Below are positions 5,082 through 37,165 of a stretch of 37,191 bases of DNA, piece after piece. The stretch lies in IMG/VR virus record IMGVR_UViG_3300042311_000159, positions 1 to 37,191 of that record; one strand, 5' to 3'. How positions within the stretch are numbered: position 1 is the first letter of the stretch; every line of letters begins with the position of its first letter. Source of the DNA: a virus. The translations under genes and the position numbers were made by a program. The notes below the pieces were generated by a model. That model searched no databases. It saw only the letters and a list, made by a program, of their open reading frames with translations, and had not been told where the DNA came from.

Positions 5082-5502
5082 TCTTGTAAGCTTTCAATAT
5101 TTGTTTACGTGGTTTGCTAGAAAAAGATACGTGAACCCAAGCAGGGTTCTCATCATTTCCGAACTCCCATATAAGTTGGTCGAACTTTAAATTGTCTTTA
5201 ATAAAATTAAATATCTCTGAGTTACTAACTTCTGTATTGTCATTATCAATATCCACTGCCTGACCTATTAAATGTTGCGAATTATGTGCTCCACCTATTT
5301 TTTTATTTAAAGCAGGACTTCTATATCCTGAGGTAATATGTATAGGTTTCTCGAAATGTTCTCTAATTGGCTCTAATATTGTCTCTGCTAGTATTGTTAA
5401 ATTCTTAATACTTTTATCATCAGCTATATTGCTAATTCCGTATCTTTTAGCAGCTGCACTATTGCAAAACTCAGCTAAGGTAAAATGTTTACTTATTCTC
5501 AT
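5050..5502 (-). CDS. M15-type peptidase endolysin
   Basis: A 150-aa protein with the zinc peptidase M15 signature: SGYRSPALN (residues 58-66), then SQHLIGQAVDID with His77 and Asp84, and WVHVS with His124 as third zinc ligand. These enzymes cut peptide cross-links in peptidoglycan. It follows two small membrane proteins (holin candidates) and overlaps the spanin-like gene downstream, completing a lysis cassette. There is no signal peptide, so export should depend on a holin. In the right-module phage an unrelated amidase takes this slot (36601-37011). Confidence 0.85.
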   Translation of the reverse strand: MRISKHFTLAEFCNSAAAKRYGISNIADDKSIKNLTILAETILEPIREHFEKPIHITSGYRSPALNKKIGGAHNSQHLIGQAVDIDNDNTEVSNSEIFNFIKDNLKFDQLIWEFGNDENPAWVHVSFSSKPRKQILKAYKNGSITVYKKI

Positions 5503-5656
5503 CTTTTTTATTTTTATAAGTTTCTATTATTTTTAATACAGTATAAAATATAGAGGCAATTAATAGAATTATTTTTAAAGCGTTTTCTATGTTAGAGAAA
5601 CTTAAAGCCATTGTTATAGTATTTAAAAAATACAATTTTAAATCGTTATTAGACAT
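5489..5656 (-). CDS. Small membrane protein of the lysis cassette, 55 aa (left version)
   Basis: An open frame from ATG 5656, overlapping the stop of the holin-like gene, to TAA 5489, overlapping the endolysin start. It begins MSNNDLKLYFLNT, with one membrane segment near residues 27-46 (ALKIILLIASIFYTVLKIIE) and a charged C-terminus. It could be a second holin component or an antiholin. Its N-terminal two thirds lie in the 127-bp repeat, so the protein at 36998-37165 is identical there and differs only near its C-terminus, where the two genomes part. Confidence 0.65.
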   Translation of the reverse strand: MSNNDLKLYFLNTITMALSFSNIENALKIILLIASIFYTVLKIIETYKNKKDENK

Positions 5657-29667: not shown

Positions 29668-30329
29668 AATCTATCTTGTTTAATTTGTTGTTTAGGTGCA
29701 AAAGTTTTATCATTTTTAGCCCAAGTTTCTAATCTTCTGCTTATACTCCAAGTTTGCTGCAATTCAAATTTTAGTTTAGTATTGCTTTTATTTGGTTCTG
29801 TCCAATATCCAAAAAAGTCTTTTAGCATATCAATAGAATATTTTTGTTTAAAAGGTATTAATGAATTTTTAAAAGCGAGTGTGCGAGTTTCTAAACTCGT
29901 TTTATTATTATCTAATTTTATATTATCTTCTCTTATGCCTTTTGTTTCGCTTATGATTTCGCTTTCGTTTGGGTTTTGTTTCGGTTTTGTTTCGGTTTCT
30001 GTTGGGTTTTTTTTAGGTCTTCCACCCTTGCCGCCATTAATAGAATTAGTTTTACTTTTAATTTCAACTTCATTAAGCTGGTTATCTAAAAACTTAATAA
30101 ATATATTGTTTTCTATTAAATCAATAACACCCTCGCTAATAAGTTCGTTTAACTCTGTTTCGTGGTTTAAACGTTTTAAAAGTTGTTCTTTTGTAAGTTT
30201 ACAATTACGTTGCCAATAGTAACTACAAATATTAATAAACAAACCCTGTGCAGATAAACTACAAAAAGAAATATCTTTAGTTAAATATTCTGCTGGTTCA
30301 AATTTAAAGTATGGAAGTTCTTTAGCCAT
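29664..30329 (-). CDS. Putative replisome organiser (DnaD/O-like N-terminal domain)
   Basis: A 221-aa protein. The N-terminal part LPYFKFEPAEYLTKDISFCS followed by LSAQGLFINICSYYWQRNCK resembles the winged-helix domain of phage replication initiators. A low-complexity hinge follows (KSKTNSINGGKGGRPKK), and a C-terminal helix region (DFFGYWTEPNK, ISRRLETWAKNDK). The layout of winged helix, hinge and loader-binding region is typical for replisome organisers that mark the origin and recruit helicase. Confidence 0.65.
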   Translation of the reverse strand: MAKELPYFKFEPAEYLTKDISFCSLSAQGLFINICSYYWQRNCKLTKEQLLKRLNHETELNELISEGVIDLIENNIFIKFLDNQLNEVEIKSKTNSINGGKGGRPKKNPTETETKPKQNPNESEIISETKGIREDNIKLDNNKTSLETRTLAFKNSLIPFKQKYSIDMLKDFFGYWTEPNKSNTKLKFELQQTWSISRRLETWAKNDKTFAPKQQIKQDRL

Positions 30330-30561
30330 TAGTTACCTCACTTTCTGTAATTTTGTTAATTTCTGTGCGAAGTGTTTTAGCAAATTTAATTGCGGTTGAT
30401 TTATCTAATCTAATAAACATATCAGATTTTACTGTATTAAAATCACCTATACTAATATAAATTACATCTTGTTTTTTAGTAAAAAGTTCAATGGTTTCTT
30501 TATTTACTTGAATAAAATGAAATCCATGTGCATCTAAAAATTTTAATTCAAATTTTGCCAT
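30322..30561 (-). CDS. Small protein downstream of candidate RNA, 79 aa
   Basis: It begins MAKFELKFLDAHGFHFIQVN and continues as a compact alpha/beta protein (DVIYISIGDFNTVKSDMFIR; AIKFAKTLRTEINKITESEV). It overlaps the organiser-like gene start by eight bases. The ATG lies 43 bases below the T-run of the structured RNA candidate at 30604-30701, so its expression may depend on read-through of that element. No family recognised. Confidence 0.6.
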   Translation of the reverse strand: MAKFELKFLDAHGFHFIQVNKETIELFTKKQDVIYISIGDFNTVKSDMFIRLDKSTAIKFAKTLRTEINKITESEVTNG

Positions 30562-30603
30562 AATAATAAAGGTTTTAAGATACCTATAAACTATTAAATT
30601 AAT

Positions 30604-30701
30604 AAAAAAATCCCATTCATTTGGTAGTGTTGTGGAACGTACCTCCTGAATAGGATTTTATATAATATTTTAATTTTACGTAATGCGTTCCACTTCATTA
30701 C
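30604..30701 (-). ncRNA. Candidate structured RNA with two hairpins and an 8-bp kissing loop
   Basis: Hairpin 1: GUAAUG (30701-30696) pairs with CAUUAC (30685-30680); its loop holds GUGGAACG. Hairpin 2: AAUCCUAUUC (30657-30648) pairs with GAAUGGGAUU (30618-30609), inner stem GGUA/UACC; its loop holds CGUUCCAC, an exact 8-nt complement to loop 1. A T-run (30610-30604) ends the element. Hairpin 2 has a U-G pair only on the minus strand (C-A on plus), which argues for a minus-strand RNA. A TAnnTTTG box (30713-30706) would start transcription at hairpin 1. It may be a free small RNA or an attenuator. Confidence 0.65.
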
Positions 30702-30705
30702 TTTG

Positions 30706-30713
30706 CAAATATA
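30706..30713 (-). promoter_or_regulatory. -7 box of the structured RNA
   Basis: TATATTTG on the minus strand, five bases upstream of hairpin 1. The -33 region would fall inside the upstream terminator and has no TTTG, so it may be activator-dependent or weak. Confidence 0.5.
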
Positions 30714-30764: not shown

Positions 30765-31115
30765 TTAGAATGGTAAATCATCTGCCGCTTGTTGTAAAGG
30801 AGTTTTTACTTCAAAAGTTTCAACTGCTGTATTAGTTAAACTTGGTGCATCTAATTTATCTATTCTCCAACCATTTAAAGAACAATACCATTTACCATTA
30901 TAAGAATTACCTCTAATATTAATTCCTACCTTTACAGCTTGTCCTATTGCGTATTTATCTAATACTTCGCATTTGTCTTGTACGAAATCAATAGGCACTT
31001 CTTGAGGGTGTTCTCCATTTGTTTTAACTACTAATAACCTTTTTTTGAAAGTTCCTGCACTTCCTACTACTTCTGTATTTCCAATGTGGATAATACTACC
31101 AATTACTTCACTCAT
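30765..31115 (-). CDS. DUF3127-type ssDNA-binding protein with DDLPF tail
   Basis: A 116-aa protein: SIIHIGNTEVVGSAGTFKKR, then VIDx-type strands (EVPIDFVQDKCEVLDKYAIG) and GNSYNGKWYCSLNGWRIDKL. The layout matches DUF3127 proteins of Bacteroidota, OB-fold single-strand DNA binders. The acidic C-terminus ADDLPF is an SSB-type docking tip. It lies directly after the recombination-type genes and before the structured RNA. Confidence 0.75.
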   Translation of the reverse strand: MSEVIGSIIHIGNTEVVGSAGTFKKRLLVVKTNGEHPQEVPIDFVQDKCEVLDKYAIGQAVKVGINIRGNSYNGKWYCSLNGWRIDKLDAPSLTNTAVETFEVKTPLQQAADDLPF

Positions 31116-34544: not shown

Positions 34545-34760
34545 TTATTTATTTTCAAATTCTACATTGTAACCTAATTCTTTTAAAACTGCGTGTAATG
34601 CTGTTTCTACATCTTCGCCTACATAATTATTATCCCATATTTCAGGGTTTGGGTGTTGTAATTCTTTATCGTTTAAATATAATTTTGTACCAAAACTTGT
34701 ACAACAACCATCGCTACAAGTATAATCCCAATGTTCAAATGTTATTTTAATATCACTCAT
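34545..34760 (-). CDS. Conserved small cysteine-containing phage protein, 71 aa (right copy)
   Basis: It begins MSDIKITFEHWDYTC and has TCSDGCC near residues 14-20. It is the homologue of 972-1190 in the left module with scattered substitutions. The start differs: here the first four codons match those of the left module's cysteine-rich gene (MSDI), so the start codon region is a recombination seam. It overlaps the 54-aa gene upstream. Function unknown. Confidence 0.75.
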   Translation of the reverse strand: MSDIKITFEHWDYTCSDGCCTSFGTKLYLNDKELQHPNPEIWDNNYVGEDVETALHAVLKELGYNVEFENK

Positions 34761-34917
34761 CTGCTAATTCTTTTATTGCCTCGTTAATACTTTCTTGTTG
34801 GTAACCCATTTGAATTAATAAACCTGTAAAAATATCAAACATTTCTACCACTTCCAAATCATCGGTTTGAGTTTCTACTGTATAAGTAGTTCCGTAATGT
34901 TTAATTTCTATTTTCAT
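34753..34917 (-). CDS. Conserved small phage protein, 54 aa (right copy)
   Basis: Begins MKIEIKHYGTTYTVET and ends INEAIKELADE, the homologue of 1370-1534 with substitutions mostly in the middle (DDLEVVEMFDIFTG). The ATG at 34917 aligns with the left copy. The stop overlaps the next start by eight bases. Function unknown. Confidence 0.7.
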   Translation of the reverse strand: MKIEIKHYGTTYTVETQTDDLEVVEMFDIFTGLLIQMGYQQESINEAIKELADE

Positions 34918-35023
34918 ATTTTATTCTTAAAATTTTATGATATATTTTATTAACGCTTTCTTTATTACAACCTCTGTTATAATTAAATTTTATAATTCGT
35001 AATACTCTTTGTAAATCTGACAT
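34901..35023 (-). CDS. Very small basic protein, 40 aa
   Basis: An open frame from ATG 35023, two bases after the MTPKEK gene stop, to TAA 34901, overlapping the next start. It begins MSDLQRVLRIIKFNYNRGCN and is strongly basic. Fills an otherwise empty gap. Not present in the left module at this position. Confidence 0.5.
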   Translation of the reverse strand: MSDLQRVLRIIKFNYNRGCNKESVNKIYHKILRIKYENRN

Positions 35024-35025
35024 AG

Positions 35026-35259
35026 TTATAGCTTTAAAATTTCTTCTTTTACTTCTTCCCAATATGAATAAAATCTTTTGCCGCCATTTCCAAATGGTGC
35101 ATTTCCATATAATAAACCTAAATCAATTATCTCATCAACTGCTATTAATGCACATTGTTTGGCTGTTGGTGTATAAATGACTGAGTAGTCTGATAACTTT
35201 ACTTTATTTAAATTCATATATTTATCTACTAATTCTTCGGCTTTTTCTTTTGGTGTCAT
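35026..35259 (-). CDS. Conserved small phage protein (MTPKEKAEEL family), 77 aa (right copy)
   Basis: Begins MTPKEKAEELVDKYMNL and ends YWEEVKEEILKL. Homologue of 1531-1752, nearly identical through about residue 45, then differing (glycine-rich FGNGGKRF here). It is two bases after the phosphoesterase stop. Function unknown. Confidence 0.7.
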   Translation of the reverse strand: MTPKEKAEELVDKYMNLNKVKLSDYSVIYTPTAKQCALIAVDEIIDLGLLYGNAPFGNGGKRFYSYWEEVKEEILKL

Positions 35260-36600: not shown

Positions 36601-37011
36601 TTAAATATTTTTGTATTCTTGTTTGGCTTCAAAACTTGGGCAGGCTTTTTTAACTCCTTCAAAATCTTTATGTCCTTGAATTATTGCATTTGGAAATTGT
36701 TTTTTAGCTTGTTTAATTAATTCTAATAAAGCAAATTTTTGTTTTGGCGTTCTTGTATCTTTTGGCTTTCCTTTTTCATCTATGCCGCCAATATAACTAA
36801 AATGTATTGAAGTAGAATTAAAACCTTTAACACCATTAGTAGGTTTTTCGTATTTTTCTAGTTCGTAAATAATACCGTTTGCATCTATTAACCTATGGTA
36901 ACCTACAGACTTCCATTTTAAAACATCTTTCCAATAATTTAAAATTGATTGTTTAGTAGCAGTTGGTTGAGTAGCTGTGCAGTGAATTACAATATAATTA
37001 ATTTTTCTCAT
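36601..37011 (-). CDS. N-acetylmuramoyl-L-alanine amidase (T7 lysozyme-like endolysin)
   Basis: A 136-aa Amidase_2 domain: YIVIHCTAT (residues 6-14, zinc ligand His10), VGYHRLIDANG (36-46, catalytic Tyr38), IQGHKDF (111-117, ligand His114) and KKACPSF with Lys122 and ligand Cys124. This is the zinc site and catalytic set of T7 lysozyme. It cuts the amide link between glycan and stem peptide. No signal peptide; holin-dependent. It takes the slot of the M15 peptidase in the left module, with the same two small membrane genes upstream. Confidence 0.88.
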   Translation of the reverse strand: MRKINYIVIHCTATQPTATKQSILNYWKDVLKWKSVGYHRLIDANGIIYELEKYEKPTNGVKGFNSTSIHFSYIGGIDEKGKPKDTRTPKQKFALLELIKQAKKQFPNAIIQGHKDFEGVKKACPSFEAKQEYKNI

Positions 37012-37165
37012 TATTTTTATTTTTATAAGTTTCTATTGTTTTTAAAACTGTATAAAATATAGAAGCAATTAATAGAATTATTTTTAAAGCGTTTTCTATG
37101 TTAGAGAAACTTAAAGCCATTGTTATAGTATTTAAAAAATACAATTTTAAATCGTTATTAGACAT
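36998..37165 (-). CDS. Small membrane protein of the lysis cassette, 55 aa (right version)
   Basis: It begins MSNNDLKLYFLNT, the same as 5489-5656 over its first two thirds, then departs: VLKTIETYKNKNNEKN replaces VLKIIETYKNKKDENK. The stop overlaps the amidase start. The membrane segment is near residues 27-46. Holin partner or antiholin; the change of C-terminus marks the crossover between the two lysis cassettes. Confidence 0.65.
   Translation of the reverse strand: MSNNDLKLYFLNTITMALSFSNIENALKIILLIASIFYTVLKTIETYKNKNNEKN

Follow-up and report, generated by a model that had tools for sequence, protein, structure and literature searches.

How might two hairpins with exactly complementary loops, lying between an SSB gene and the replication genes of a phage, act on the genes that follow them? 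The first-pass annotation of the window (the whole stretch of 37,191 nt analysed here, positions 1 to 37,191 of the IMG/VR virus record IMGVR_UViG_3300042311_000159) had proposed that they form a new structured RNA on the minus strand, with an 8-bp kissing loop and an intrinsic terminator, acting either as an attenuator that tunes replication or as a free regulatory RNA. Transcription control in Bacteroidota phages has been little studied, and the nearest relatives of the window in the searched collections include Flavobacterium phages.

Architecture of the element

The two hairpins with complementary loops, the promoter box and the seven U residues are all present on the minus strand at 30713-30604, as had been described. 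Together with their neighbors, the parts are as follows.

30765..31115, minus strand: upstream gene, SSB/DUF3127-like (ORF list and protein similarity)
30706..30713, minus strand: −7 promoter box TATATTTG, of the Bacteroidota TAnnTTTG form (read from the sequence)
30680..30701, minus strand: hairpin 1, with stem P1 (GUAAUG/CAUUAC), at or adjoining the predicted 5′ end of the transcript
30686..30693, minus strand: kissing word K, GUGGAACG, in the loop of hairpin 1 (paired with K′ in 100% of cells across ten leaders)
30660..30679, minus strand: AU-rich spacer (family median, 20 nt; an extra hairpin occurs here in some members)
30607..30659, minus strand: hairpin 2, composed of outer stem P2a and inner stem P2b
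30659-30648 with 30618-30607, minus strand: P2a, AAAAUCCUAUUC with GAAUGGGAUUUU (fold prediction and covariation)
30643-30640 with 30626-30623, minus strand: P2b, GGUA with UACC, 4 bp flanking the loop word (missed by the first-pass annotation)
30632..30639, minus strand: kissing word K′, CGUUCCAC, in the apical loop of hairpin 2, complementary to K
30604..30610, minus strand: U-run of seven U, intrinsic-terminator-like
30570..30585, minus strand: small extra hairpin AGGU-AUCUUAAA-ACCU, upstream of the start codon (by reading the window and its relatives)
30322..30561, minus strand: downstream ORF of 79 aa, phrog_33177, of unknown function (ORF list and phrog match)

Hairpin 1 is laid out as GUAAUG-AA-GUGGAACG-CAUUAC (30701-30680, minus strand). 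Upstream of the −7 box, the window element has TTTAGC and its relatives have TTTTGC; another terminator-like hairpin lies on the minus strand between the SSB/DUF3127-like gene and the kissing leader. The fold of the window element has an MFE z-score of −3.1, with the kissing pairs uncounted, and the plus strand obtains the same folding score because the same inverted repeat folds there as one long hairpin. In the relatives, U-G alternates with U-A, which settles the strand assignment as minus, the strand originally chosen.

Covariation of the stems and the kissing pair

Relatives found by protein similarity alone carry two hairpins downstream of SSB with different loop words (GUGAGAAG/CUUCUCAC, GUGAGACG/CGUCUCAC, GUAGGAGC/GCUCCUAC, ACUGGUACU/AGUACCAGU and more). 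When ten related leaders were aligned by sequence, standard pairs occupied 99.3% of 295 base-pair cells, compared with 36–47% in slid controls, and 18 of the 30 pairs had changed on both sides, a figure that 0 of 500 shuffles reached. The paired cells amounted to 98.3% in P1, 100% in K:K′ (5/8 pairs changed on both sides), 100% in P2a (7/12) and 97.5% in P2b (3/4). A second subtype gave 92.7% paired cells with both-sided changes in 16 of 26 pairs, and in the GUCGUCG class, compensated variation was also present in the outer stem of hairpin 2. The compensating changes that the first-pass annotation had proposed as a check are therefore found in both stems and in the loop pair, in the ten leaders as well as in the second subtype.

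A descriptor consisting of the promoter box, a hairpin and a complementary loop inside a second hairpin was run over 1.07 Mb of phage loci, which are partly redundant; it produced 77 matches at a score of at least 56, and none when the sequence was Markov-shuffled. Because this descriptor demands a perfect K:K′, counting covariation solely in its matches would be circular reasoning, and K-blind tests were therefore used. First, K-blind covariance models recovered the other subtype and further members, and the new matches inspected show K:K′. Second, hairpin-1-only searches covered all IMG/VR viral contigs. With the GUCGUCG hairpin 1, the complementary word lay downstream in 46 of 48 distinct cases, and one further case (locus L175) keeps K′ through a U-G pair; with the GUGRRAMG hairpin 1, in four K variants, each variant had its own complement downstream in 35/36 distinct cases. 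Compensatory changes and the matching of each K variant with its own complement thus bear out the 8-bp kissing pair as genuine. At locus L195, a GUGAGAAG-type hairpin 1 occurs near an ORF without a matching hairpin 2, perhaps a natural truncation.

Over all loci, 182 distinct matches lie outside long reading frames (a few of them doubtful), 166 of them with an ORF directly downstream; about 165 distinct leaders bear dozens of different loop words. In some records, several credible copies occur and their words differ. Of 120 ordered pairs of words from within a locus, 2 were able to cross-pair, against 8.7 expected (permutation P = 0.057), which is suggestive only of the words in one locus avoiding cross-pairing. 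Loop words vary among copies but complementarity is retained, as would suit an undescribed family of putative gene-control RNAs in phages, whose fold and position are well supported.

Could the conserved feature be the DNA itself, an inverted repeat used as an operator or as a recombination or replication site? A long inverted repeat is indeed present in the DNA, and the plus strand folds equally. However, U-G alternates with U-A on one strand only, K′ of L175 is kept solely through a U-G pair, the stems covary separately, and the element keeps a fixed orientation to promoter and ORF. We regard a DNA-level role as very improbable, and a plus-strand or DNA element was rejected on the U-G pairs.

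The AGGAGGU in hairpin 2, singled out earlier for its complementarity to the 16S 3′ end, was a separate candidate. An anti-Shine–Dalgarno role was dropped: AGGAGG occurs in 14 of 166 members and is not conserved, and its GGU belongs to the covarying P2b, which varies as GGUA/UACC, AGCA/UGCU and GGCA/UGCC. An upstream ORF was likewise rejected. In the window, a 34-codon frame begins at the AUG of P1; the GUGAGAAG leaders, examined by eye, instead read AUG-AAG-UGA at once, so the frame is not conserved.

Position between promoter and gene

In a scan without a promoter requirement, a TAnnTTTG box was located within 26 nt upstream in 32/39 strong matches, against a background of 6.8%. Hairpin 1 begins 4–6 nt past the −7 box in 39 of the 57 members of the first set, the start site being a predicted one, and a TTG occurs 18–19 nt upstream of the box about 25 times among these 57. 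This spacing of TTG and TAnnTTTG is the Bacteroidota promoter layout. On the other side, an ORF starts 5–53 nt past hairpin 2 (median, 21) in 57/57; in the larger set, an ORF follows in 166 of 182, with its start codon at a median of 16 nt downstream. From hairpin 1 to the ATG the leader measures about 100 nt; the median 5′ UTR in F. psychrophilum is 24 nt (PMC9723704).

A T-run of at least 5 directly after hairpin 2 was found in 79% of the 166 leaders, compared with 3.7% of position-matched controls before other ORFs, so the U-run noticed in the window is conserved across the family. In about 7% of members there is no T-run of 4, and termination is therefore perhaps not universal, though kissing is.

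The 115 downstream proteins include about 20 HNH endonucleases, helicases, primase-polymerases, primosomal proteins and an antirepressor, in a list that is biased because many loci were fetched around SSB or via the hairpin-1 sequence; the phrog_33177 ORF was seen 14 times. The link to the junction between SSB and replication genes accordingly does not hold, since leaders of this build also stand ahead of HNH endonucleases, helicases, primases, an antirepressor and others. One leader precedes different ORFs in the window and in locus L002, and leader and gene are therefore exchangeable.

A promoter, a structure of about 100 nt and a terminator would also yield a discrete RNA, which might be released as a free small RNA acting in trans, and in L134, L138, L146 and L177 extra sequence parts the leader from the next ORF. 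Nevertheless, an ORF follows directly in nearly all members, and the loop words, which pair in cis, are not the same from one copy to the next. We consider such a free RNA unlikely, and it was set aside as the main reading given ORF starts 5–53 nt past hairpin 2. The extra sequence in those four loci, between a GTCGTCG leader and the ORF, starts with TATATAACG, and in L146 and L177 it has inverted-repeat structure.

A proposed conditional terminator before the start codon

What, then, does the leader do? What can be read directly from the sequences is the fold, the K:K′ pairing, the placement between promoter and ORF, and the U-run, and on these grounds we give about an even chance to a cis-acting 5′ RNA that works as a conditional terminator. 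In this process, the host RNA polymerase would start at the Bacteroidota promoter, and the first nucleotides would fold into hairpin 1 with K exposed in the loop. K′ would emerge about 40–60 nt later, in the loop of the future hairpin 2, and K would pair with it, tethering the 5′ end of the transcript to hairpin 2. Hairpin 2 and the U-run would constitute an intrinsic terminator right before the start codon, so that the polymerase would either stop, leaving an RNA of ~100 nt, or read through into the gene. Kissing may alter the speed or geometry of hairpin 2 formation as the polymerase reaches the U-run. We infer termination at the U-run, regulated read-through, and kissing as the switch; the direction of the switch, likewise inferred, might depend on how fast the polymerase moves or on a factor that acts on the structure, given that there is no conserved loop sequence for a trans factor.

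Attenuation is the best fit, since in 57/57 members of the first set the element follows a promoter of its own and precedes the next ORF; that part of the original proposal is supported. Covariation of all four helices, the K-blind models, the association with promoters, the proximity of ORFs and the U-run are its supporting points. As in attenuator leaders with an intrinsic terminator, the order is promoter, structured leader, terminator hairpin with U-run, and start codon, the leader coming after the promoter and ahead of the first codirectional ORF. In contrast to those leaders, the main type here lacks an alternative antiterminator stem, a uORF and a ligand core, and the feature conserved in addition is kissing with the loop of the terminator. 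Since K′ lies in that loop, kissing leaves the terminator stem uncontested, unlike in classical attenuation. A second complementary site ahead of K′ exists only in part of the GGTCAG subfamily (L171, L126, L155, L072, L044 and L119), where the loop of hairpin 1 matches not only K′ but also an upstream site in or near the 5′ arm of hairpin 2; this dual complementarity could make a true two-state switch.

The main rival to conditional termination is a stabilizer of the 5′ terminus, in which kissing would clamp the 5′ end into hairpin 2, keep nucleases off and prolong the life of the mRNA, the U-run being incidental. Hairpin 1 stands at the expected 5′ end, 4–6 nt past the box in those 39 of 57 members, and is weak by itself (median, −2.4 kcal/mol), with K:K′ adding about −10; 5′ stem-loops do stabilize bacterial mRNAs (PMC3997798). 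Stabilization accounts for a free loop sequence with conserved pairing, but it leaves the terminator-like U-run unexplained (79% versus 3.7% of controls), and we hold it to be somewhat doubtful. Attenuation and 5′ stabilization could both operate at once.

The HK022 put RNA consists of two promoter-proximal hairpins in phage early transcripts, by which polymerase passes terminators without a phage protein. By analogy, the folded nascent RNA here might let polymerase pass downstream terminators: two adjoining hairpins stand at the start of phage non-structural genes, and structure is kept rather than sequence. The likeness is one of architecture, the second hairpin here is itself terminator-like, and we know of no terminator at the second hairpin of put; we rate this reading as improbable.

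Relation to known systems

Attenuator leaders and kissing loops are each already known. In the cobalamin riboswitch, a leader hairpin kisses the expression-platform hairpin through L5-L13 (PMC10907184), as hairpin 1 does with a downstream hairpin here, whereas the present family has no cobalamin core (no Rfam match), its loops are hypervariable, and its platform hairpin is terminator-like. In RnaG-icsA, whether the leader undergoes intrinsic termination is decided by kissing between RNA hairpins (PMC5394118), a feature shared with the proposed switch; RnaG, however, is an antisense RNA acting in trans, whereas both hairpins here belong to one transcript.

Portability has its own parallel. The PeSL cassettes of T4-type phages combine a promoter and a stem-loop into a portable unit found ahead of a variety of phage genes, as is the case here; to our knowledge they have no kissing pair or terminator-before-ORF design.

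Searches of the window against Rfam 15 at gathering and relaxed thresholds returned nothing credible for the element, Flavo-1, DUF805 and riboswitches included, and in 15 loci the sole matches were a tRNA and an unrelated DUF805b site. The proposal of a new structured RNA, for which this search had been suggested, accordingly stands, and the searchable literature contained no description of a kissing leader element. The DUF805b RNA itself lies at 2126-2160 of L096, upstream of a ParB-like gene in phage morran9-1.

Two exact hairpin-1 sequences were absent from 395 sampled Bacteroidota genomes, where other words and unsampled prophages are possible, and viral contigs contained them in 75 and 51 stretches; within this limited sampling, the family therefore looks phage-borne. 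One weak host-genome match to covariance model R1 among 296 genomes (L113) was rejected as a plain terminator without K:K′. Among cultured Flavobacterium phages, the leader is carried by snusmum6-1, mumin9-1, morran9-1, stinky9-1 and filifjonk9-1, in which the family is amenable to testing; no convincing element was found in Fpv5, phi19:3 (first 50 kb) or P12024L.

These leaders add a covariation-supported structured-RNA family to Bacteroidota phages, mark, in many uncultured phages, the promoters and opening genes of operons for DNA metabolism and of HNH endonucleases, and supply dozens of natural kissing-loop pairs of 6–10 bp with built-in sequence variation. We tentatively suggest that they may be self-addressed RNA switches, whose leader-specific cis kissing words differ within a genome and whose sequence-free structure would be read directly by the transcription machinery, controlling a set of replication and homing-endonuclease genes.

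Further features of the window

The small hairpin AGGU-AUCUUAAA-ACCU has counterparts in L073 (CCGU-AGCUUAAA-ACGG) and L078 (CGGU-AAUCUUUAA-ACCG), the three having similar loops and compensatory stem changes. It was noted solely alongside a family of ORFs of 70–83 aa, downstream of the kissing leader and ahead of the phrog_33177 ORF, and is perhaps a candidate binding site for the phrog_33177 protein. Similar gene cassettes lie near both ends of the window, at 972-1779 and 34545-35259, and at 5489-5656 and 36998-37165.
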